A stretch of DNA of 37,443 nucleotides. Source: a virus. This document shows positions 1,996 through 27,448 of the stretch, in pieces; the first letter of the stretch is position 1; the number at the start of each line of letters is the position of its first letter. The notes under the pieces were generated by a model. That model was not told the DNA's origin, did not search any database, and worked only from the letters and a program-made list of their open reading frames with translations. The stretch lies in IMG/VR virus record IMGVR_UViG_3300033141_003149, positions 1 through 37,443 of that record, one strand, 5' to 3'. The translations under genes and the position numbers were made by a program.

Positions 1996-4900
1996 TGAAA
2001 GCTGAAGATTTTTTAAACCAGGAAACTAAACCTGTAGGCGAAAAGATTACTTCAAAGGGTATGTCTGCTGAAGCTTTTCTTGATATGCCTACAGAGGAGC
2101 CTATCGGAGAAACAGTAATTCCGGATATTGCACAAGAACGACCTCCTACCATGTTTGAACGTGGCAAAGAAGCGGCCACGGAGTTCTTTCGCCCATCTTT
2201 TGCACCTGAACCTGCTGTCCCGTCTGGCATGGAGGGAATGCCGGAGTCTGCTATTCCGGCTGGCATGTCAATGGATATCCCTGCCCGTAGGGCTGAGATT
2301 GACGAAAGGTTTAGTCAAATTGATGCCGAGGTCACAACGGGAAACATAGAAGGCCTACAGGCCCAAATTGAAGAGCTATCCTCTCAGGCGGTTGATGGGG
2401 CATTACCTCCAGACCTGTATAAGCAATATACTGCATTACGCCCACAATACGAAAAAGCCGTTGAAGATTATAACGCCGGGATAACTGAGGCCCAGGGATT
2501 GACAGGCGAGCTACAGGACCTGGAACAACAAGAATACGGGATGGCTATGGCACGTCCCGTTTCAACCGTTACAGGTAAACCAGTTCCTACTCCCGAAGAA
2601 AGAATGCTTGGTGGCATCACCGAACCAGGAAAGTTTGATTTCATGGACCGGGCCCGGGAGATCAAGGAAGAGGGCGTTGTTCCATTCATCCCGTTTGTGT
2701 CAGGTGCAAAGGAAGTTAAAGACATAGCCCAGGTTTCCGCGGCTGCTTACAAATTGAAAGAGGGGACCGCTACCCCTGAAGAAAAAGTAGACCTTTTGGA
2801 ATTTGTCGAAAAGGCAAGCAGGGACACCACCTTCGGGTACAAGGTCATTAATACAGTTGCGGCCATGCCTGCCTTTATGGGTGAATTCCTTCTTACCAGT
2901 GGACTGTATTCTGCTGGTCGAAAAGTCGGTACAAGGGCTGCGACGAAAACTCTTGAAGGCTATCTAGGCAAAGTTGGCAGAAAACTACTTGAAAAGGATT
3001 TGGGCAAAATAGGGGTAGGGATTGCCGGGGGAGTGGCCGGAGGTACATTGCAGGCCCCGATAATGGGCGCTCCTCGTATAGTGAGTGGGACCATAGAGCG
3101 GTCCATGCCAAAGCTGAAACTTTCCAGGAATGAGCAAGGTGAAATCAATGCGGTGATAGCCGGTGAAGGAGAAGACCTTCTCGTGGCGTCCACAATGGCG
3201 CTCGGGGATCAATGGGCTGAAACCGTATCAGAACATAGTGGCGGTTTGTTCAGGATGCTCAATGGATCTGCGAAAAATGCTGCAATCAGGGCCGGATTGT
3301 TCTCTGCCACCATGAAAGCCAATCCGGGCATGTCACCGAACAAAGTCAATACCCTTTTCAATAAAATGGCATATCACGGTGTCATTAATGAAATACTGGA
3401 AGAGCGGGTAGGTGAAGGCTTGCGGGCTGGCCTGGGTCTGCAAGAATATAAGATACCTACGGCTGAACAGTTAGCGGTTGAGTTGGTATCTTTTTCAGTT
3501 CCCGGTGTGATCCAAGTTCTTGGGGCGAGAGCTTTCAGGGGACCTAAACCTACGGAAGCTCCCCCAAAGGCTCTCCCCTTGGCAGCGCCAGACCTATCTG
3601 AAACACAAAGAGAGCTTGCCAAAGAGGTCATTCGTGAAAAAATGGCGGAACGGCCTCTTCCTCCTGCTATACCAGAAAGGCAAATACCGCTTGCCCCTCC
3701 CGGAATGCCTTCCCCCGGGATACCTCCGGTAACGCCTGAACCAATGGCCGAACTTCCACCAGGTCAAGGATTTGGACTTATAGAGCCTACACCTGAAATA
3801 AGGTTGCGTCCGGGCCCTGAGAGAATAGAAGGGCCTGAGTATCCTGAGGGGGCTGAATATGTGGCTGGCAGGCCTGCACCTGAAGAGCTTGAGGTTGAAT
3901 ACAAACCTATCCTTGGTTCACATGGTTTACCCTGGAAAGAGGAAGAAAGGGCTTTAAAAGCTTTTGAATCCAAAAGACTGATTGAGGCAGGAATTACTGA
4001 AGAGACACACGAAGTCGTACCGATTAAGAATGGATTTGGGATCATAAGAAAAACGGCTGTTGAGAAGGAAATTGTTGAACCTGAAGTTGTGCCGGAAGTT
4101 GAGAAGCCGGAAGTCGAAGTTTCTCCGGCTAAAGAAGAGGTTCCCGTTGAACCCGTTAAGCCTGAAGTAATCAAAATCCCCGAACTAAAAAATACCGAAG
4201 AAGCCTTAGCCTTTGGCAAAACGGCTACCCCTGAGCAGATCAAGGCCCTGAAAGCCAAAAGAGATGAAAGCCTGTCAAAAGCGGATGCCTTGAAAGATAA
4301 GGACGATCTACAAGGTGCCATGGATGAGGCTGTCAGGGGGCAGCTTTTCAGGGAGGCTATTGAGTCTGCTGAGGGAAAAGTTGTTGAGGTGAAGAAACCC
4401 AAAGAGCCTGTTGTTTTTGACATGCCAAAATTTCCTAAAGATGATTTTGATAATGAGATAAAAGCTCTTAACCAATACTTGGTTGAACACGATTCCAAGA
4501 AGGGGCGAGTCCCTGCCAAAAAACCATATCTCAAAACAAGAGACGAGGAATTTGCTAAAATTGTAGGTGATACTGATTATCAGGATTCTAATATTGCTGG
4601 CGGCGTAGAAGATGTGCGCCAAGCAATTTGGACAGGTGAAAAGCTTGGGTATCATCCAGATGACATAGCTAAATATCTTGAACAAAATTACGTAGAAGGC
4701 GTATCAGGTGGGGGGAAGATAATTTCTCAGATTGAAAGACCTAAAGAACCTGTTGCCGAAGTCCCGGCGAAAGAACCTTGGGAGACAAAACAAGAAGAAT
4801 ATATTGATAATATTAATAAAGAGTATCAAGCGAAGAAGGAAGAAATAGAAACTAAAGAAAAGAATACTCTTTCTGAAATTGATGCTAAGCAATCACGGGA

Positions 4901-7900
4901 CATAACACCTAAACGCGGAAGACAAATAAGTAATCAGTACGAAGAAGCAAAAAAGAAATTTTATGAAAAACGAATGCGACTTGATGAAGTTTATCATGAA
5001 CTCAGATATAAAGATGGAAAATTTGTAACAAAACATCAAGATGTTATCAAAAAAGCCCTAAAATCCGGCCAACTAACCCCCGAAGCCTACACCAAACTCC
5101 ACGAAAAGGATTATGGGCCTCTTGCGGAGTTTATGCCTGAAGTGGTTGAGAAAGCCAAGCCTGAAGCTAAGGTTGAAAAATTTGAAGAAATATACCGTGG
5201 AGAGGGAGGTCCATCAGTAAAAGAGGGACGTTATTGGTCCCCTGATAAAGAATGGGCTGCACAATTTACGCAGACAGGAAGATTGTCAGAAGTAAAATCA
5301 GGACGAATAAAATCTTCTGATATATATGAGGCGTCACCCTTAACGGAAGCTACAGACCCCGATGCCATAGACGCTGCGGCCAAACTCGCAAAGAAAGAGG
5401 GATTCAAGGCTATTCGTTTAGATGAAGGAAAGCGTGAACCTGATTCGGTTTATATCTTTGACAGGACTGCAATTAAGCCTGAGAAGATTAAGAAAGAACC
5501 CCTCTCCGAAACCAAGTCCCGCCTACTCGCTAACATAAAATCCGAAAAGGGTTCATCTGAACTCATAAACGATCTGTCTCGCCTCGGGGCCGATGCGATG
5601 CGCAGGGGCCATACCACCTACAAAGCTTTTACGGCAGAGATGAAAAGTGAGTTGAGTAGTGTCTGGGAGAAAATCAAATCGTTGATACGCAAGGCTTATT
5701 TTGCGGCTAAAAAGGTTGTTGCCACAGTCAAAAAATGGAATGAAAAGCCGGATACTTGGGAAATTTACGACAAAAAAAGCGGTGATATCGTCGATGTGCT
5801 TAAACCTGGAGAAAATAAAATAGAGTATGCCGACATTGATATACTTTTGGGAGTTGACAAAAAATATGGAATAAGAAAAGCCAAAAAGATCCCAGTTGAA
5901 ATGCTTCCAAGAATAATCAAGAGTGAACGAGGAGCGGTTGAAATTGGGAAACCCAAGCCAAAACCTGAAGTTGGCCGTGAAGTCATAAGCAAGGACGGAA
6001 CCACTGTTGATTGGGATAGGTCAAGAGTCATTACAAAAGAAAAGGTAACTCATAAGTGCTATGCGACCTACAACAAAGACGGCTCTTTTAAAAAATGGAG
6101 AACCAGGGAGGCGATAAACAAGATCAGGGCACTCAAGAAAGCTGACGTGAAATATAAGGAACGATTAGGAAAAGCCAAGGATAAATTTGATGTCCGGGTA
6201 GAGAAAATCAAAACTGCCAAGGAAATTCTCAAAAGGCGTCGGGAAAAAATCCGGGCTGTCAAAGAGCATTTCCTGTTGTCGGATAGTGATTTAAGGAAAA
6301 TTACAAAAAGAGATATCCGCTTGATGTCTGACTTTGAATTTAAACAGTTTATTGATGACATAAGAGTAAAAGCTGAAAAGTTTGCCGAAAGACGGCAAGC
6401 TGTAAATGAGCTGGAATTACTTAAAAAGGAAAAAGCTTTTATAGGTGAAGAGAATATTCGGAAATTTTACAAATTACCGACTGTCAAAAATATGACTCAC
6501 AAGCAGTTAGAGGAATATGCAGAAATTTTGAGCGGATATGAAAAGGGCGATCAGTTTTTAACTCCAAAAAGGATAGGTGGAATAGAAAATACACTATGGG
6601 CGGGCTCAAGAACTGTGCGTGAAGTATTGGAAAAAGCCTCAAAAGAATTTGATGTCCCATTGTCAGAGCTTAGAAAAGTCAAGGTGTCGGAGATTGATAG
6701 GTTCAGATATGACACGTCTCTTGCAAGACAAAATCCTTTTTACAATTTCATGGTTGACACGATAAGAACGGCAGAAATCAAAAGTCAGTTCAAATATTTT
6801 AAGGAGAGAGAAAAGCTTTACCGGCTTGCTAAGGCAGCACTGAAATCAAGAAAAAGAGGGATACTCGGAAGGTTGGTTCCGCGCCAAAAAGACTTGATGA
6901 ACTATCTGGAGGCGGAGGGCGATGCAAAAATAGAAATGGCTGAAAAATTGACCGTAGAAGAGATAGCTCTTGCGGAAGGAATAGAAGATTTTTACCGCAG
7001 AGCCTACAACTGGTTACTTATAAGTCAGGAATTAAAAACCTCTCGTTTCGAAGATAAGTATGTCATGCATGCCAAGCGGCCTATAAGCGAACTGCTGATT
7101 GATTTAAAGGATACCGGGATCAAGAGTGCTGTAAAGGATCTGTTAAACAGGTGGCGGCTTGATGAGGCTCAATTCAAGATACTTGACAGCAAGACCGGCG
7201 AAATTCTCAGGATGAAAAAGTTCTTCCGGCAGACGCTATACCGGACAGGGGAGCTGACTCCTACTAAAAACATCGTCAAGGCCACTGATATTTACATGCA
7301 GCAATTTTTCCAGAAAATGGCACTCGATGAATCTGTCCCCGCAATAGAAACCCTTGCCATGGCTTTGAGGCCGAAAGAAAAAACAAGAACAGGGATATTC
7401 TTGAACGATAGTCTGATGACATTTGTTAAAGAATACCTGAATACTAAGAAAGGAAGGGCAATTAATATTGGAATACAGCAAGGTGGGAAAGTAGATACTG
7501 TAATAAGATTCACAAACCAGATTATTTCCCTCAGATACATTGCTCTTAACATCCCGCTTGAGCTTGCGGCCATTGTCGGTGAGACAACTGCAAAGTTGCC
7601 AGCGCTGGGGAACAGGAAGCTTATACTTGCGAACATAAGAAGGCACACACCGCGAGGCAGGCGGATACTAAAAAAATACAAGGCATATACCGGGGAGGGA
7701 GTTCTTGAAGAGGCTCTTCAGCCAGCAAGAAACATAGGTGAAAATATAAACCTGCTTTTATATGGATTATTCAAATGGAGTAGAAGAGTTACAAAGCAAG
7801 ATATTCTTCTCGGAAATATGACAAAGGCAGAATTTGAGGCGGAGACAATTAGCTCTGAAAAATTAGCTGAAGCTACAAAAATGACCGGGAGGTGGCTTGA

Positions 7901-12210: not shown

Positions 12211-12241
12211 CCAATAACTGGGCATGGAATCAGAGGGAATT

Positions 12242-12823
12242 ATGGCTAGCCTCAACAAAGCGTTAAAGCCATTGCTGGGTATTGAAGGCAAATATGTCGA
12301 TGACTCAGTTGATGTTGGAGGGGAAACATATTGCGGAATATCTCGTCGGTATCATCCAGACTGGTCAGGATGGATCATAATTGATGCCAGAAAATCAGAT
12401 CCTCTTTTTCCTGCTTGCTTAGAACAAGAGGATGCGCTTCATTTCAGCATCAAGTCTTTTTACAAATATCGTTATTGGGATTTCTTTTGGGGTGATGCTA
12501 TGCCAAGCGATAGACTTGCCCAAAAAATGTTAAATGTTGCCGTAAATCCTGGACCTGCTTTGGCTGTCATGTATTTACAGCGAGCCCTGAATGTGCTTAA
12601 TCGCAATACGGTCCTCTATATGGATATTCTTGTTGATGGAGTTTACGGGCCAAGGACACACAAGGCCCTTAAACAATATTTGCAGAAAGACGCAGTTACC
12701 TACTTGTTGAAAACCATTTTGATTCAGCAGGGAATGCACTATCTTGATTATATGAAGCGATCTCCCGAACAAGAGAAATACGCACGAGGTTGGTTCAATC
12801 GGTTAGAGATTGAGATAAAATAA
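12242..12823 (+). CDS. Endolysin, GH108-type N-acetylmuramidase
   Basis: 193 aa from the ATG at 12242, which follows a GAGGG box; an in-frame ATG at 12224 has no ribosome binding site. The N-terminal part shows the GH108 signature with the likely catalytic Glu15 in GIEGKYVDD, then VGGETYCGISRR. The C-terminal half has the peptidoglycan-binding type 3 pattern LQRALN...LVDGVYGPRTHKAL. Enzymes of this family cut the glycan backbone of peptidoglycan at the end of infection. No signal peptide or membrane anchor is seen, so a holin or other export help is expected. The stop codon overlaps an attC-like site. Confidence 0.85.
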   Translation: MASLNKALKPLLGIEGKYVDDSVDVGGETYCGISRRYHPDWSGWIIIDARKSDPLFPACLEQEDALHFSIKSFYKYRYWDFFWGDAMPSDRLAQKMLNVAVNPGPALAVMYLQRALNVLNRNTVLYMDILVDGVYGPRTHKALKQYLQKDAVTYLLKTILIQQGMHYLDYMKRSPEQEKYARGWFNRLEIEIK

Positions 12824-12876
12824 CGATTTAGTTCAGGGGCACGGCTTTTTGTGTCCGCTGAAACGACTGGTTATAC
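12818..12876 (-). other. attC-like recombination site A (59 bp)
   Basis: Read on the minus strand it begins GTATAAC and ends GTTATTT, matching the imperfect inverse-core and core (GTTRRRY) boxes of integron attC sites. Between them, GTTTCAG and CTGAAC form the inner arms with one unpaired base, the expected extrahelical base. GGACAC pairs with GTGCCC around a short loop, allowing one G-T pair. Length is 59 bp, the classical size. As in real cassettes, the stop codon of the 64-aa ORF lies in the first core box. Its outer end also overlaps the endolysin stop. Confidence 0.7.
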
Positions 12877-13095
12877 GTTTATTTGTTTTAAATCTTTTTT
12901 TAACATATAAATTTGCCTATCTTTCTGAGCTAAAACAAGTCTGACAAGTTCTGCTGGCGGGGTTCCCATCGGCCCATGATCTTCAATAGCAACAGTAGAT
13001 AAATCAAGTTCGTTGACTACATCCTCAAGCATATTTTCGAGTTCATCTTTATTCCAACAACTCATAACTTTATCACCTTTCTGGTTGACGTATAA
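12824..13095 (-). mobile_element. Integron-like gene cassette (272 bp)
   Basis: If the two attC-like sites are cut at the usual G/TT position, the excisable unit is 12824-13095. It holds one ORF with a short leader, its own ribosome binding site and an attC at its 3' end, all in the same orientation. This is the textbook layout of an integron cassette. No integron integrase gene is present in the window, so any insertion would have used an integrase supplied by the host. Confidence 0.6.
12871..13065 (-). CDS. Cassette-borne 64-aa hypothetical protein
   Basis: No family recognised. The protein is mostly helical by composition, with an acidic N-terminal half (ELENMLEDVVNELDL) and a basic C-terminus (KKDLKQINV); PMGTPPAELVRLVLAQKDR lies in the middle. 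A ribosome binding site (AAAGGTG) stands before the ATG. Its stop is embedded in the core box of attC-like site A and its leader starts at the core box of site B. Cassette proteins of this size are often toxins, antitoxins or regulators, but nothing in the sequence shows that here. Confidence 0.65.
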   Translation of the reverse strand: MSCWNKDELENMLEDVVNELDLSTVAIEDHGPMGTPPAELVRLVLAQKDRQIYMLKKDLKQINV

Positions 13096-13147
13096 CGCCT
13101 GAGTTCAGCGGCGCGGGTTTAGGCTCCGCTGGAACTATTTGTTAGAG
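13090..13147 (-). other. attC-like recombination site B (58 bp)
   Basis: On the minus strand it begins CTCTAAC and ends GTTATAC. Internal arms GTTCCAGCGGA and CCGCTGAACTC pair with one or two unpaired bases, as in L'' and L' of attC. The loop is GC-rich. It ends where the leader of the 64-aa ORF begins. It would be the attC of a preceding cassette whose gene is no longer recognisable; an HNH-like gene now lies there. Confidence 0.75.
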
Positions 13148-13158
13148 AGTATTAAGGT

Positions 13159-13196
13159 GGCCTGCGTTTCTAATCCCAGGGCAGGCCAGCGCTGGG
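13159..13196 (-). ncRNA. Predicted H-type pseudoknot, copy 1
   Basis: On the minus strand CCCAG (13196-13192) pairs with CTGGG (13179-13175), and GGCCTGC (13187-13181) pairs with GCAGGCC (13165-13159), giving an H-type pseudoknot. Loop 1 is 4 bases and loop 3 is ATTAGAAAC. A second copy at 23589-23624 has different stems but the same loop. It lies 35 bases after the stop of an HNH-like gene. Function unknown. Confidence 0.55.
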
Positions 13197-13231
13197 TATC
13201 AAGGAGACACTTATGGCATAATGAAAATTTA

Positions 13232-13729
13232 TTAAGTTCCAAATTCCTGTTGAGCCGATTTCAGACGTCGGAATGTCCAGCCTTTTACAGATTTACATCC
13301 GTATCTTTCACATAAACAATTTGAAATATTGCTATTGCTTAAATTGTGCTGTCTTGCAAATTTATGTTGATTGTTTGAAAAAATTATTTCTCCGCTTGGG
13401 CTAAATGCCTGGAACCAGCGTTGCTTCATTGGTCCACAAGACAAAGGTCGACAATTAAGATTTTGTTCATGACGTATTGCCCACTTGCAATTCCCTGGTT
13501 CATAGTTGCCATCATTGTCGATACGCTCTAAAGTGAGTTCAGGTTTTGGCTTTTCTCCTATGTCGGCAAGAAAATTCTCAAACGAGTGCCAGCGCTCACA
13601 AACCGTAATGCCGCGACCACCGTAATTTTTAAAGTCCTTAACCCTTGGATTTTGACAACGCTGTCTCATGTGTTTCCATGCTACATATTCCGATGTTATT
13701 TTATTTCTTCGTGCATGTCCATGTTTCAT
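13232..13729 (-). CDS. HNH-like homing-type protein, family member 1
   Basis: 165 aa, one of five paralogues in the window. Shared blocks: HGHARRNKITSEYVAWKHM, RCQNP, YGGRGITVCERWHSFENF, then [18 protein letters not shown], a short linker and a C-terminal SNNQHKFARQH...ISNCL...KGWTF module that resembles the helix-turn-helix (NUMOD1-like) DNA-binding repeats of homing endonucleases. The central block looks like an HNH fold, but the usual D-H pair reads E-R here, so cleavage activity is uncertain. It starts 4 bases after the RusA-like gene stop and is followed by a pseudoknot and an attC-like site. Confidence 0.7.
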   Translation of the reverse strand: MKHGHARRNKITSEYVAWKHMRQRCQNPRVKDFKNYGGRGITVCERWHSFENFLADIGEKPKPELTLERIDNDGNYEPGNCKWAIRHEQNLNCRPLSCGPMKQRWFQAFSPSGEIIFSNNQHKFARQHNLSNSNISNCLCERYGCKSVKGWTFRRLKSAQQEFGT

Positions 13730-13733
13730 AGCG

Positions 13734-14156
13734 TTAATCTTTTTCTATCGTCCATATTTTGATTTCAGTTCTGGGATTATTTGAATAAATTTTTTGAGCC
13801 ATGCTTTCAACAATTTGGCTATCATCTTTCCAAACAACATGATTTAGACAATCATACACAAATTTTTCTAAATTATCCAAATCTTTCTTCTTTGTATGAA
13901 AAACTGGAGCATTAGGTTTCAATATTTTTGCATTTTTACCAGTTCCATAATGGCTTTTAGGCCGTGGCATATAAAAAATGCAAGCTATTTTAATAGGCCC
14001 TTCAAGGAGAGGACATTTTATTTGTTGCTTTACTTCCCATAAGAATCGACCTTCTTCGGTTTCTTGATCATTATAAGTGATTACAAATTTACCCCGCCTG
14101 GAAAACCTAGGCCTAGTTTTTGCGATCGGATTACCGGGAATTACAAGATGTTGCAT
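13734..14156 (-). CDS. RusA-like Holliday junction resolvase
   Basis: 140 aa from the ATG at 14156; a TTG three codons upstream is an alternative. RusA enzymes cut four-way DNA junctions during recombination and genome processing. The N-terminal block HLVIPGNPIAKTRPRFSRRG and the acidic signature KKDLDNLEKFVYDCLNHVVWKDDSQIV contain the Asp residues that bind metal in this family. It is the last conserved gene of the minus-strand recombination operon, 46 bases after the deoxyribosyltransferase-like gene. Confidence 0.85.
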   Translation of the reverse strand: MQHLVIPGNPIAKTRPRFSRRGKFVITYNDQETEEGRFLWEVKQQIKCPLLEGPIKIACIFYMPRPKSHYGTGKNAKILKPNAPVFHTKKKDLDNLEKFVYDCLNHVVWKDDSQIVESMAQKIYSNNPRTEIKIWTIEKD

Positions 14157-14202
14157 TACGCCCAACCGGTCTTCGTGCCGAAGTCAAGTGCCGGGATTTT
14201 CA

Positions 14203-15201: not shown

Positions 15202-17067
15202 TTAGAGTCTCTTTATGTATCCACCTTCAACCCAAAATATACGAATAGGTGAATTCTCTGGCACGCTGGGAGGCCCTGCTGCGTTGGTAGCGGCTGCGGC
15301 TACGACTTGGGTAGTCTGGCCTATGTCAACGAGCCACTTGCGAACACGGGTACTGTCAGCGGCTACACTGATGTTCAATTCGTCCAATAGTAGCAGACCC
15401 ACTCCGGTTACGTGGCTGATAGCCTCTGCAACTGCCATTCTTACGCGCGAGGTTTCAGCGCCTCCAAGTGTCCATAGCTGTTTTTTGTCGGCCTGTACGA
15501 GGCTCAAGTCATCCAGGAAGAGGATATCAACTCCCATCATCGGCGCATGTTCTTTTAACCGGGCATTCAGGGTCCCCAGCTTTTCCGCCACAAGCTCACC
15601 GGGGATTCCGTCTGGGGCAAGCAGCGTACATAGCGCGTTATAATGTTCACGCCTTGTCTCTGTTTCTTCAATCTTTGCCCGAGTTGCATCCAATGTTGCC
15701 TTGGTTGCCTGGTTCCAGGTAATCGCTGATTGTGCGATTTTGAGATATTTGACCTTTTCTTCGATTGCTTCTATTGAAATTTCAAGAGCTTCTTTTTTCT
15801 CACCTGCTTCAGGCGCGGCATTTTCCAGCTTTTCCTCAATCTCCTTGATTTCTTTTTCCAAATCGGCAATGTCGTCTTTTGTTTTCATGCAGCCTGCAGC
15901 CTTTTTCGAGAGATCATCCCATTTTTCTTGTTCGGGGAACTCTTTTTCCTCGACTGCTTTGATCCTCTCTGATATTTTGTCAATCTCTTTTTGCTGTTCG
16001 GACCAATCCGGCTCAATAGCTGGACACATTTTATGTCCAGATGCTCCAGGTATGGGACATGCAAGATTGCTTTTCCAGTTCTTTTTATTTTCTGCCAAGA
16101 GGTCTTCGGTTGTCGCTAGCAAATTTTCAAGGGCTGCAACGTCCTCTTTGACTTTGGTGTCAAACTTTTTCTTTGCTTCCTTCAGCTCAGTGGCCTCAGC
16201 GGTATCCTCTTTTGTCCACTTTTCCGCTTTTGCGAGTTCAGCCTTTTCTGTCTGGTATTCTGACAGTTGTTTCTCTGCCTCCTTCTTGTCTGCGTCTGAC
16301 AGGGCCTTGATTCCCCCAAGCTCCTTGTAGAGTTCCTTGAGGCGTTTCTTGTGGGTTGCTTCTTGTTTTTCAAGGGGTTTTTTCTTATGGGTTGCCATGA
16401 TGGTATCCATGAGGACTTGCGTGTTTCCTAGGGCAACCTGGGTGATCAATTTGGGCTTATCGCCCTCAAGGGCCTTAATTCTTTGCCCTGCTTCGCGGCG
16501 TGAATTGTAGGCTATGCTATAGCCGGCATCCCATCCGAGGTGATCAATTTCTTTAATGACTTCTTCATTCCATAATTCTTGACAGACATTTTCGGCATAT
16601 CCTTTTTCGTAGAGGGCGATAAAGGCGTCTTTCAGGGTGGGCTTTAGTCCCAGGGCCTTGATGATGAGCTTTTTTTGATGTGCAGGGTCCAAATCAAAAT
16701 AGTAATTTGCACTGAGGCATGCTGACAGAATATGCGGGTCAACGCCCAACTGAGCACCAATTTGGACAGGGGAGGGCCCGGACCTATTTGTTTTGGCCAG
16801 GGTACGCTTGATGTTGAAAGGAGATGTCCCTGCTTGGCCGGTAATCGTCACCGAGGCTGTTTTGCACTGGTCGTTAATTGCCTCGATGAAAGCTCCCTTG
16901 GACTGGCCTTGGATACTATCAGTCAGGGCGTAGATTGTTGCGTCCAGCAGAGATGTTTTGCCGGTTTCGTTGTGGCCAAGGAAAAGGTTACACTTGGATG
17001 ATAACTCTATTTCTGCTGCCCGAATTCTTTTAAACCCTTTTATTTTAACGTTATTGATGCGAATCAT
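15202..17067 (-). CDS. SbcC/Rad50-like coiled-coil ATPase
   Basis: 621 aa ABC-type ATPase of the SMC/SbcC/RecF group, which organises or processes DNA ends. Walker A is GHNETGKTS (residues 31-39). The ABC signature region is LGGAETSRVRMAVAEAI (about 530-546) and Walker B is GLLLLDELN (557-565). Between them is a long Lys/Glu/Ala-rich coiled coil (about 200-480). A hook-like turn near residues 333-347 reads CPIPGASGHKMCP, with two Cys 11 residues apart instead of the usual CxxC. The protein is shorter than bacterial SbcC, as expected for phage versions. The ATG overlaps the stop of an HNH-like gene (ATGA). No SbcD partner is seen in this window. Confidence 0.85.
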   Translation of the reverse strand: MIRINNVKIKGFKRIRAAEIELSSKCNLFLGHNETGKTSLLDATIYALTDSIQGQSKGAFIEAINDQCKTASVTITGQAGTSPFNIKRTLAKTNRSGPSPVQIGAQLGVDPHILSACLSANYYFDLDPAHQKKLIIKALGLKPTLKDAFIALYEKGYAENVCQELWNEEVIKEIDHLGWDAGYSIAYNSRREAGQRIKALEGDKPKLITQVALGNTQVLMDTIMATHKKKPLEKQEATHKKRLKELYKELGGIKALSDADKKEAEKQLSEYQTEKAELAKAEKWTKEDTAEATELKEAKKKFDTKVKEDVAALENLLATTEDLLAENKKNWKSNLACPIPGASGHKMCPAIEPDWSEQQKEIDKISERIKAVEEKEFPEQEKWDDLSKKAAGCMKTKDDIADLEKEIKEIEEKLENAAPEAGEKKEALEISIEAIEEKVKYLKIAQSAITWNQATKATLDATRAKIEETETRREHYNALCTLLAPDGIPGELVAEKLGTLNARLKEHAPMMGVDILFLDDLSLVQADKKQLWTLGGAETSRVRMAVAEAISHVTGVGLLLLDELNISVAADSTRVRKWLVDIGQTTQVVAAAATNAAGPPSVPENSPIRIFWVEGGYIKRL

Positions 17068-17549
17068 ATTATTTTTTCCTCAATTCGTGTGAATGTCCAG
17101 CCCTGGCAGGTTTTGCGACGGCCTGCAAGACAACTAGAAATATCGCCCTGACGTAATCCATGCTCTTTAGCGAACTGATGCTGGTTATTAGAACAGAATA
17201 TTTCTTCTTTAGGGCTTATAGCTTGAAACCGTTTTTGTTTATTGGGGCCGCAAGATTTAGGTCTTGAATTAATTTGCTGTTCATGTTTTGTACTCCATTG
17301 GCAATTACTAGGTTCGTAATTGCCATCATTATCTGTGCGATCTATAGAATATTCAGGTCCTAATCGTTCGCCCATATCCGCAAAGAAATTCTCGAACGAA
17401 CACAACCAGCGCCTGCAAACAATGATTCCACGACCGCCGTAGTCTTTGTATTGTGAATGGTTCGGATTTTGGCATCTGGCTTTCATGTTAGCCCAGCTTC
17501 GATGTTCTAACGATTCCCCACCCCTTCTACAATGTCCGTGTATTAACAT
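17064..17549 (-). CDS. HNH-like homing-type protein, family member 2
   Basis: 161 aa. It carries the same blocks as its paralogues: HGHCRRGGESLEHRSWANM, RCQNP, YGGRGIIVCRRW, SIDRTDNDGNYEPSNCQW, KRFQAISPKEEIFCSNNQH and a GWTF ending. The gene is wedged between the Gp3-like gene (3 bases upstream) and the SbcC-like gene, whose start codon overlaps its stop as ATGA. The neighbouring genes are intact, so the insertion created no visible damage. Confidence 0.7.
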   Translation of the reverse strand: MLIHGHCRRGGESLEHRSWANMKARCQNPNHSQYKDYGGRGIIVCRRWLCSFENFFADMGERLGPEYSIDRTDNDGNYEPSNCQWSTKHEQQINSRPKSCGPNKQKRFQAISPKEEIFCSNNQHQFAKEHGLRQGDISSCLAGRRKTCQGWTFTRIEEKII

Positions 17550-18719: not shown

Positions 18720-19496
18720 TTATGTTAGAAAATCAAATATCCAGTTTTTTGTAGTTTTTCGTTTTTTATATAAACAAGCAGATATGTTTGAAGAGTAAAG
18801 TTCATGCTTTCTCGCAAATTCACTCTGGTTATTATCTTCAAACCATTCACCCGTATTTTGATTGAATGCCCAAAACCAATGTTGTTTCGTGGGACCACGA
18901 GATCTGGATCTACGGTTATTTGCTTGTTCTTGACGAGATGCCCAGCGAAAATTATTAGGTTCATAGTTTCCGTCATTATCAGGCCAGCGGTCTATGGTCA
19001 TTCCTTTAGGCGGATTTCCTACGTCAGCATAGAAATTCTCAAACGAATGCCAGCGTTTACAAACTTTGATTCCCCGACCACCGTAATCTTTATAGGCTGG
19101 ATTTCTTGGATTAATACAGCGCTGAATTATGCCTTTCCAAATTTTATGTATTGGAGTTCCAGACATTCCGTGTGTTGTAAAATGTTTTTTAGCTAATTCT
19201 TTTACAAGACATCCACAACTTTGGGTGTGACCTGATCTAAGATGATAAGAATTTATTTCACAAACTTTCCCACAGCTACACAAGCACAGCCAAGCAATTG
19301 ATCTTCTTTGTCTTTTCTCTGTAGGCTCAATAGCCACCAGTCGCCCGAATCTCTGTCCTGAAATGTCTTTCGCGTTGCTATGTAATTTCATGCTAATTTT
19401 ATGGAAGAACTCCTGATGCTGCTTAGGACCTGCCGCGAGAGGAGGTTCCGGTTTCCCGGACATCAGGAGTTCAAATTTTAGATTTCGGGGTTTCAC
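18720..19496 (-). CDS. HNH-like homing-type protein with zinc domain, family member 3
   Basis: 258 aa from a GTG at 19496; a Met 35 codons downstream (19391) fits the usual family start better but has no ribosome binding site. After the extension comes DISGQRFGRLVAIEP, then a zinc-ribbon-like block CLCSCGKVCE...SGHTQSCGC. The shared blocks follow: [37 protein letters not shown] and a C-terminal [10 protein letters not shown] module. The N-terminal 35 codons contain a 12-bp inverted repeat. It lies between the RecE-like and Gp3-like genes; the latter starts 12 bases after its stop with its own AAAGGAG box. Confidence 0.7.
   Translation of the reverse strand: MKPRNLKFELLMSGKPEPPLAAGPKQHQEFFHKISMKLHSNAKDISGQRFGRLVAIEPTEKRQRRSIAWLCLCSCGKVCEINSYHLRSGHTQSCGCLVKELAKKHFTTHGMSGTPIHKIWKGIIQRCINPRNPAYKDYGGRGIKVCKRWHSFENFYADVGNPPKGMTIDRWPDNDGNYEPNNFRWASRQEQANNRRSRSRGPTKQHWFWAFNQNTGEWFEDNNQSEFARKHELYSSNISACLYKKRKTTKNWIFDFLT
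19407..19472 (-). other. Stem-loop with GAAA-capped inner hairpin
   Basis: GAACTCCTGATG (19407-19418) is the exact reverse complement of CATCAGGAGTTC (19461-19472). On the minus strand the 42-base interior contains TCCGG-GAAA-CCGGA, a hairpin with a GNRA-type tetraloop, and a possible ACCT/AGGT stem, giving a three-way-junction shape. It lies in the N-terminal extension of the HNH-like ORF. It may be a structured RNA or regulatory hairpin. Confidence 0.55.
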
Positions 19497-23643: not shown

Positions 23644-24126
23644 TTAATTAGCATATTCAAATTTCCAACCTTTTACAGATTTAAAGTGTGGTGTTTTACG
23701 CAGACAAGCTGAAATATTGCTCGGATTTAATCCATACCGTCTTGCAAATTCACTCTGATTATTAGAAATAATTTGCTTGCCATTTAACTTCCAAGCCATA
23801 AATCGGCGTTGTTTAGCTGGACCACAGGATTGAGATCGACAATTGTTCCGCTGTTCCTTGCGAGTAGCCCATCGACAATTTCCTGGCTCATAATTACCAT
23901 TGTTGTCAATTCTCTCTAAGGTAAGACCAGAACTTGGTTTTAGTTCCATATCTTCAAGAAAGTTCTCAAACCTTTTCCAGCGTTCACATACTTTTATTCC
24001 ACGGCCACCATAGCGATGGTAGGACTTGCAATTTTGGTTTAAACAGCGACGCTTCATGTCATACCAGGCTTGATATTCTGGTGTTCGTTTGCCTTTTTTG
24101 CAATGGCCGTGCTTTATTTTTCCCAT
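23644..24126 (-). CDS. HNH-like homing-type protein, family member 5
   Basis: 160 aa from the ATG at 24126; a longer start at 24150 would overlap the upstream gene. Blocks: [87 protein letters not shown] and VKGWKF. It is most like the member at 13232-13729 and, like it, is followed on the same strand by a pseudoknot element. It sits between small genes of an operon without breaking them. Confidence 0.7.
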
Positions 24127-24131
24127 ATTAA

Positions 24132-24353
24132 TTATTGGCTCCACTCCCATCTGTCTTCCATAAAATTGTATTTGAGTTCACTGTCAGGATCTTCATAGCT
24201 CCAGTGATCTTCCATGGGATTGTATTTAAGGTCATTCTGTGAGGATTCATAGCTCCAACTGTCTTCCATGTAATTATAGCGGAGTTCGGAATCATCAGCA
24301 AAGGCAGGGCCAGACAAGATAAGGATAAGGGCCATGGTCATTAAAATTTTCAT
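24132..24353 (-). CDS. Exported protein with three YN-MED-W repeats
   Basis: 73 aa with a signal peptide ([19 protein letters not shown], cleavage near AFA-DD). The mature part is only three copies of an 18-residue unit: [28 protein letters not shown] and [14 protein letters not shown]. The consensus is [ED]-L-[RK]-Y-N-x-M-E-D-x-W. Short tyrosine/tryptophan repeats with this YN...W pattern occur in exported proteins of unknown role. A ribosome binding site (agagga) is present. It presumably acts in the periplasm or envelope of the infected cell. Confidence 0.65.
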
Positions 24354-26040: not shown

Positions 26041-26550
26041 ATGAAAGTTATTCAAACATCTTATAGTGGATACCTTTTCCGATCACGCCTTGAGGCAAGG
26101 TGGGCTGTTTTTTTTGATAGCTTAAACATTAACTGGGAATATGAAAAAGAGGGATTTGAGTTTAAAAATGGGAGGCGCTATCTTCCTGATTTTTGGTTAT
26201 TAGATGTGTATGCGCGAAACAATCAATGGCAAGGAATATGGATGGAAATAAAGGGGGTTAATCCGACAGAAATAGAAGAATATAAATGCCATTTACTTGA
26301 AGAGGCTACAGCACAACCGGTATTTTTAGCTGTTGGGATACCTCCGGGCAAGGGGGTAGATGGCTATGGAATTATAGATTTTCCTTGTATGTTTTCTGGT
26401 CAGACTTTTTGTAAATGTTACCATTGTGGAAGTATAAAAATTGATGATTCATTAGAAACAAATCCCTGCCAAAAATGTGGAAGTTTATCAGAAGATCAGC
26501 ATCCAGATATTCAACAAGCTATTGTTGCCGCAAAAAGAGCTGACTTCTAA
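26041..26550 (+). CDS. PD-(D/E)XK nuclease-like protein with zinc ribbon
   Basis: 169 aa. The block YSGYLFRSRLEARWAVFFDS, then WEYEKEGFEF, YLPDFWLLD and MEIKGV, has the order E...PD...E-x-K typical of a phage-encoded PD-(D/E)XK nuclease-like family (Glu in the RSRLEARWA helix, Asp in LPDF, Glu and Lys in EIKG). The C-terminal part has CYHCG and CQKCG, a probable zinc ribbon. The role could be a host- or phage-DNA nuclease in early infection. It has a GAGGT box and is the first gene after the leader hairpin. Confidence 0.7.
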   Translation: MKVIQTSYSGYLFRSRLEARWAVFFDSLNINWEYEKEGFEFKNGRRYLPDFWLLDVYARNNQWQGIWMEIKGVNPTEIEEYKCHLLEEATAQPVFLAVGIPPGKGVDGYGIIDFPCMFSGQTFCKCYHCGSIKIDDSLETNPCQKCGSLSEDQHPDIQQAIVAAKRADF

Positions 26551-26551
26551 A

Positions 26552-27448
26552 ATGAAGTGGTATAAGCATATAACTGACAGCTTGGATGATCCTTTTATTT
26601 TTGAACTTATGGAAAAACATGGATCAGCCGGATATGTGGCTTTTTTTGGTATTTTGGAAATATACGCTAGGGAATTTAAGGTCGCTGATGACTGGAAACT
26701 AGTTGTGAGATTGTCATATTTAAAGAAAAAACTTCGATTTTATCATAAAAAAATTCTCATAAATTGTCTTAAAACAATTGGGAGCCAACCAGAGATTGAC
26801 CAAAGATTAACCAAAGATAGAACAGAGATTGACCAAAGATTAACCAAAGATAGAACAGAGATTGACCAAAGATTAACCAAAGATCAAAAAAGATTAATAA
26901 AAGATAGTGGCAAATGGGAAATTGAATTTTACGAAGACAGGGTAAGTATTTTTATACCTAAATTCAGGGAGTTAATGGACGAAAGTACACTAAAAAAATT
27001 AAGAGCAATAGAGCAATCTTTCCGGAATTGTTCTGGAATCATTCCGAAAAGTGGTGCGACAGATGTAGATGTAGATGTAGATGTAGATAAAGAAAGAAAA
27101 GAAGTATTACATACTTCTTGCTCGGAGCCAGAAAAACCACTGGACTCCGAACAGCCTGTTTTAAAAATTTCTCTCGTAAAAAAAGATGGTGATTTTTTGA
27201 TTTTTCAAAAAGACATTGAACAATGGAAAGATACTTTTCCTGCTGTAAATATTTTGCAAACACTCAAAGAAATCCGTCAATGGAATTTAGATAATTCAAC
27301 AAAAAGAAAAACTAAATCTGGAATACGAAGACATATTTCATTTTGGATGGGAAAAGAACAAAACAAAGGTGGAAACAAAAAAAATGAATCTGAAGATATT
27401 CTTTCCCGCCTCAAAAGAAAAGAAAAGGAATTAAACAATGAAACCTGA
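26552..27448 (+). CDS. Replication initiator (lambda O-like) with iteron-like repeats
   Basis: 298 aa from the ATG at 26552, one base after the previous stop. The N-terminus MKWYKHITDSLDDPFIFELM, then GSAGYVAFFGILEIYAREF, is the winged-helix start typical of phage replication proteins of the O/DnaD type. Residues 81-111 are three EIDQRLTKD units encoded by 33-bp DNA repeats. A VDVDVDVD stretch follows, and the C-terminal region (DIEQWKDTFPAVNILQTLKEIRQWNLDN...SGIRRHISFWM) resembles a DnaD-like tail. It would open the origin and recruit the loader encoded by the next gene, which overlaps by 11 bases. Confidence 0.7.
   Translation: MKWYKHITDSLDDPFIFELMEKHGSAGYVAFFGILEIYAREFKVADDWKLVVRLSYLKKKLRFYHKKILINCLKTIGSQPEIDQRLTKDRTEIDQRLTKDRTEIDQRLTKDQKRLIKDSGKWEIEFYEDRVSIFIPKFRELMDESTLKKLRAIEQSFRNCSGIIPKSGATDVDVDVDVDKERKEVLHTSCSEPEKPLDSEQPVLKISLVKKDGDFLIFQKDIEQWKDTFPAVNILQTLKEIRQWNLDNSTKRKTKSGIRRHISFWMGKEQNKGGNKKNESEDILSRLKRKEKELNNET
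26792..26884 (+). repeat. 33-bp tandem repeats, iteron-like candidate origin
   Basis: Units at 26792-26824 and 26825-26857 are identical 33-mers, and 26858-26884 is a partial third. Each 33-mer consists of three 11-bp parts: GATTGACCAAA, GATTAACCAAA and GATAGAACAGA. The 11-bp phase keeps repeats on one face of the helix, as in replication iterons. The repeats lie inside the initiator gene, as in lambda. Confidence 0.7.
27062..27088 (+). repeat. GATGTA hexanucleotide repeat
   Basis: Four perfect GATGTA units and a partial fifth encode the Asp-Val repeat in the initiator. Being a multiple of three bases, slippage would change length but not frame. Confidence 0.9.

Follow-up and report, generated by a model that had tools for sequence, protein, structure and literature searches.

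Qi et al. (2023, PMC9892861) described integron components in 21 phages, and recombination by IntI1 of attC sites from phages H101 and TJE1 was shown in the same work (Qi et al., PMC9892861). Insertion of cassettes outside integrons, termed attG insertion, has also been reported, according to the account in PMC12901181 (Loot et al. 2024, Nat Microbiol). The locus described here is a well-formed added case in an unclassified phage, with a cassette gene from a phage family.

The locus lies in IMG/VR record IMGVR_UViG_3300033141_003149, a linear metagenomic contig of an unclassified phage, which was analysed over its whole length of 37,443 bases and is called the window below. The phage identity of the record is given by genes for terminase, endolysin, RusA and helicase (Pfam, PHROG); several HNH endonucleases are also present. 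The rightward genes stop with the endolysin at 12823, leftward RusA and HNH genes converge from the other side, and the gap between the two gene sets is filled by two imperfect palindromes and one 64-aa ORF. This arrangement is very probably a CALIN (cluster of attC sites lacking an integrase) in the genome of a tailed phage, made up of two attC sites and one complete cassette, into which a host IntI acting in trans would have brought a phage accessory gene. The direct basis for this reading is a pair of attC sites of the same polarity, complementary core and R'' boxes, one conserved coding ORF in the usual orientation and a junction at the endolysin stop codon. The features of the locus are:

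12224..12823, plus strand: endolysin gene, GH108 muramidase with PG_binding_3 (PF05838, E = 8e-15; PF09374, E = 1e-14; PHROG endolysin, E = 6e-33).
12818..12876, minus strand: attC of the 64-aa cassette, R'' GTATAAC (12876-12870) and R' GTTATTT (12824-12818).
12824..13095, minus strand: the cassette itself (272 bp), which starts with TTATAC, ends in the G of the outer R' box and has complementary core boxes.
12871..13065, minus strand: 64-aa ORF of an unnamed phage protein family, with RBS-like AAAGGTGA upstream and the TAA stop inside R'' GTATAAC.
13090..13147, minus strand: upstream attC, R'' CTCTAAC and R' GTTATAC.
13232..13729, minus strand: HNH endonuclease gene (PHROG HNH, E = 2e-40), the upstream neighbour in the leftward operon, listed as context with no claim of cassette membership.
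13734..14165, minus strand: RusA-like Holliday junction resolvase (PF05866, E = 1e-31), context.

The HNH gene is one of four related HNH/NUMOD-type endonuclease regions in the window (13232-13729, 17064-17549, 18720-19496 and 23644-24150), the copies having 66-68% DNA identity to the one at 13232; their spread through the window suggests that homing endonucleases multiplied in this phage. Elsewhere, a perfect 33-bp tandem repeat of about 3 copies, with 11-bp units (ACCAAAGATTG), occupies 26787-26905 within an ORF at 26477-27448.

A preliminary description of the window, made from its letters, had reported two palindromes of 59 and 58 bp with attC architecture and core boxes GTTATAC and GTTATTT. 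Both palindromes are present with these lengths, and with both sites taken in minus-strand orientation the two core boxes correspond to R'. Read in this way, the upstream site (13147-13090) is CTCTAAC AAATAGT TCCAGCGGA gcctaaacccgcg CCGCTGAACT CAGGC GTTATAC, and the cassette's own site (12876-12818) is GTATAAC CAGTCGT TTCAGCGGA cacaaaaagccgtg CCCCTGAACT AAATC GTTATTT. The inner arms are arranged in the canonical way, R''-7 nt-TC(N)AGCGGA ... CTGAACT-5 nt-R', and the single extrahelical base of the original claim is found in the L box.

The attC covariance-model search that had been proposed was run with a model made from ten attC sites cut from annotated resistance plasmids, which covers the sequence motifs of the L and R boxes. 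On the minus strand, the upstream site scored 36.4 bits (E = 1.1e-7) and the cassette's site 30.4 bits (E = 4.6e-6); the E-values come from a short calibration. These are the only strong matches in the window, where the third-best place reached 10.2 bits with filters off. Sites in phages H101 and TJE1 gave 20-23 bits with the same model, and a control set of 80 viral loci (838 kb), consisting of loci of RusA relatives with other contexts, gave convincing matches in one record only. For the site at 12818..12876, the bottom strand (the plus strand of the window) folds better than the top strand (z = -2.5 versus -0.9). A search of the window against Rfam returned zero matches and is hence neutral on attC identity. 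Judged by sequence and model score, both palindromes qualify as recognisable attC sites, with R'', L'', L' and R' boxes and unpaired bases.

The start of the cassette, GTTATAC (13096-13090), is the exact complement, at 7 of 7 positions, of the R'' box of its own attC, GTATAAC (12876-12870). Complementarity between the box at a cassette start and the cassette's own R'' is expected of a recombined cassette, since excision and insertion of a circle produce it. At the other border, the endolysin stop codon TAA (12821-12823) lies within the outer core box (AAATAAC on the plus strand). Since TAA followed by C is G/TTA on the opposite strand, where the slash marks the crossover, the outer crossover would fall directly behind the endolysin stop (TAA/C), in line with the proposal that the outer core box overlaps this stop codon and is the insertion point. 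Two stop codons converge on the outer attC from its two sides, each of them part of a core box. An integron-type cassette with two attC sites beside the endolysin, and with its crossover at the endolysin stop, is supported.

The palindromes could instead be transcription terminators, or other intergenic phage hairpins that resemble attC, with the 64-aa gene an ordinary phage gene. The outer palindrome does lie between converging genes, where a two-way terminator is expected, and no attC is detected for most relatives of the gene. However, a model that contains the L and R box motifs gives E-values of 1e-7 and 5e-6, and a terminator has no need of cassette ends that are exact complements. A scan of 12600-13800 detected no stem and T run of the terminator type, and the terminator reading, which was rejected on this ground, is in our view highly improbable.

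The upstream attC belongs to a preceding cassette with an unrecognisable other end: a search upstream as far as 25,000 found no exact GTTAGAG on the minus strand. Since the start of that cassette is not recognisable, the array may be an old remnant. On the plus strand, GTTAGAG occurs at 12802, which is 16 bp short of the endolysin stop region, and at 13141, the end of the upstream attC; as the bases that follow differ, these copies flanking the element were taken as chance.

As the preliminary description had also held, the record has no IntI-like gene, and the integron integrase profile TIGR02249 has no match in it. The record is a linear metagenomic contig, possibly a fragment, so an integrase could lie outside it. 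With two attC sites 213 bp apart and no TIGR02249 match in the record, the locus falls under the CALIN definition (at least two close attC sites, no integron integrase) and not under that of a complete integron (intI and attI beside the array). No promoter-like site was found inside the cassette. The search for an empty site found none: the endolysin and its upstream neighbour had no close relative in IMG/VR, and the terminase relatives, which were also searched, gave no close relative or unrelated contexts only.

For the insertion, we envisage a host-encoded IntI that would act in trans during infection or lysogeny. It would join the folded bottom strand of the attC of a circular cassette to a G/TTA target, namely the complement, on the opposite strand, of the endolysin stop TAA plus C; this target may have been a secondary one of the attG type or a cassette junction of earlier date. 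With the cassette at this position, the endolysin would stay intact and the 64-aa gene would be the last of a leftward operon (RusA, HNH, 64-aa). The gene would then be a phage accessory gene packaged as a cassette, and not a typical host integron gene.

The 64-aa ORF itself (13065..12871, minus strand) is as first described, in cassette orientation and with its TAA stop inside GTATAAC. Compared with its relatives, it shows 29-52% identity at third codon positions, which are near saturation, and 67-86% at first and second positions. Because third positions diverge so much more, the ORF is a coding gene, and one on which purifying selection acts. Searches with the protein against Pfam, PHROG, NCBIfam and the PDB (by profile) gave no match, and its predicted structure, of moderate confidence (pLDDT 69, a level too low for fold comparison), consists of three helices. 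In L026, L030, L038 and L040, the family sequence makes up the C-terminal part of longer ORFs. Our guess is that the product is small and helical, has an early or accessory role and binds another protein.

Some 50 metagenomic viral contigs, drawn from many different samples and varied in base composition, carry relatives of the gene; one of these contigs is 362 kb long. There was no match in cultured phage records or plasmids, and a search of 84,980 bacterial and archaeal genomes with peptide patterns found relatives in 3 short MAG contigs only, none with a detected attC. Within these genomes, as searched by peptide patterns, and within the plasmids, no copy was found beside a bacterial intI. 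No relatives of the protein were found inside other viral attC arrays.

These distributions bear on the origin of the cassette rather than its identity. Capture from a host integron had been implied at first; the whole cassette, gene included, would then come from a chromosomal or mobile integron of the bacterial host. The attC sequences do resemble those of proteobacterial mobile integrons, for example the dfrB1 attC, and the gene-to-attC polarity is the ordinary one, as in bacterial integrons and unlike most phage arrays. Against such an origin, the family is present in some 50 viral contigs, in no plasmids and, among bacteria and archaea, in just the 3 short MAG contigs. Since the gene is of a phage family and in several phages is again framed by matching core boxes, capture of the gene from a host integron is not supported, and we regard it as unlikely. 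The preliminary description had named the same ORF recurring with these palindromes across phages, and never in integrons, as an outcome that would speak against it. For the origin of the gene, this is partly what was found; the attC identity of the palindromes is not undone by it, since attC is absent around the gene in most relatives and the sites in the window match the attC of resistance integrons.

A GTTNNNN box 26-35 nt before the ATG, with its exact complement at the stop codon (NNNTAA/C), is present in 4 of 47 relatives (L020, L031, L037 and L055) as well as in the window; any such core-box signature was seen in 2% of 782 background ORFs. By sequence, the gene is flanked on either side by attC-like palindromes in L037 and L055; of these, the attC model detected one flank in L037 and neither in L055, where the arms are longer. 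In L020 and L031, the match is limited to the core boxes, and no attC is detected at the gene by the model. L085 has the gene inside a larger cassette with complementary boxes. Model-detected attC sites (E < 0.01) are present in 6 of 43 family records versus 1 of 80 control loci (Fisher p = 0.007), and most family members sit outside recognisable cassettes. The long-armed palindromes that frame the gene in L055 (2850-2990 and 3190-3320, with AAGCTG-A-CTGG arms), missed by the short-attC model, are possibly another attC class. The facts of recurrence favour conversion of a phage gene to a cassette over acquisition of a host gene by a phage, though they are not proof.

The cassette may have been made inside a phage, by recombination of a nearby attC with G/TTA at the stop codon of the gene, the resulting circle then moving between phages. 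The family is phage-specific, unrelated phages share the position of the cassette ends relative to the gene, stop codons are inside the core boxes, and there are terminase-bearing phage arrays in which successive core boxes are complementary; all of this favours such an origin. On the other side, none of its steps has been observed. Moreover, the polarity of attC to gene in L037 and L085 is opposite to the ordinary one in the window, which would call for two or more independent cassette formations, or else an inversion. We give formation inside a phage somewhat less than an even chance.

In bacterial integrons, cassette genes run with the attC polarity. A DNA pattern scan of IMG/VR gave 64 stretches with strict attC sites, around which the model added many further sites. 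In the multi-attC viral loci among these, genes run against the attC polarity in 28 and with it in 7, a count made with simple gene calls from a sample chosen by one pattern and including some near-duplicate loci, which we treat as a lead whose p value is of limited weight. Reversed arrays are found in L225, L037, L230, L250, L234, L220, L085, L222, L223, L246 and others, and several reversed records carry a terminase; examples of ordinary polarity, which is that of arrays with bacterial-type intI, are L241/L247, a record with a full integron integrase, and L200. Successive core boxes of the reversed arrays are often exact complements, which argues that these are true cassettes. In the published phages MW202573 and H101, the annotated genes also run against attC; H101 was counted among the 7 by the simple gene caller, yet is reversed by its annotation. 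Stretches with reversed genes in phage records lie at 2069-3738 of MW202573 and 76529-77987 of KR534323. The cassette of the window has ordinary polarity. We found no paper in the open-access literature that describes reversed gene polarity in phage arrays.

One temperate phage (L259/L260) has genes for terminase, portal, capsid and tape measure and, beside a phage integrase, an integron integrase of its own (E = 5e-130). In L259, intI is at 5357-6412 on the minus strand and attC sites are at 7422, 8257 and 8666 on the plus strand, in normal geometry to intI, with the cassette genes on the opposite strand.

A broader proposal would be that phages keep a cassette pool of their own, in which phage genes such as those of the 64-aa family become cassettes at stop codons (TAA/C being G/TTA on the other strand) and most arrays have their genes against the attC polarity, with the window as an ordinary-polarity member. 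Taken together, the pool and the place of the window in it are put forward tentatively, as a possibility that we doubt more than we favour. If the proposal is true, transcription of reversed cassettes would start at phage promoters, and an integron Pc would leave them silent; if the reversed polarity holds up, phage cassettes are not simply borrowed integron cassettes. The recurrent phage cassette gene and the reversed polarity in phage arrays are the two leads from this analysis, and a cassette gene of a phage family suggests that phages can supply cassettes besides carrying them.

Among known systems, the CALINs of Pseudoalteromonas phage H101 and Tetrasphaera phage TJE1 (PMC9892861) likewise consist of attC sites and cassettes with no integrase in the phage record. 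Compared with these, the attC sites of the window score higher with the same model, and the locus is a single recognisable cassette at the end of an endolysin gene, with a gene family that recurs in metagenomic viruses. The genes of H101 and MW202573 run against attC, whereas the cassette gene of the window runs with it. The attC sites of class 1 mobile integron cassettes (dfrB1, aadA5, aadA and cmlA1) share the R''-7-L''-VTS-L'-5-R' layout and complementary core boxes, and the motif TCCAGCGGA ... GCTGAACTCAGGCGTTA is common to them and the sites of the window; the dfrB1 attC, GCCCAAC TTGTCGC TCCAGCGGA ... CCGCTGAGCT AATTC GTTGGGC, is laid out in the same way. Unlike class 1 cassettes, the window has no nearby intI, attI or Pc, and a phage gene takes the place of the resistance gene. 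In attG insertion, as far as the account in PMC12901181 describes it, a cassette is likewise placed at a G/TT site in a non-integron location, which in the window is inferred from sequence; the second complete attC upstream would be unexpected from a single attC x attG event as described there. The reverse integrons of Treponema (PMC3607928, PMC7691350) are likewise an unusual orientation within an integron system. In Treponema, it is intI whose orientation differs relative to the genes; in the phage arrays seen here, the genes are turned relative to attC; and in the cassette of the window neither is the case.
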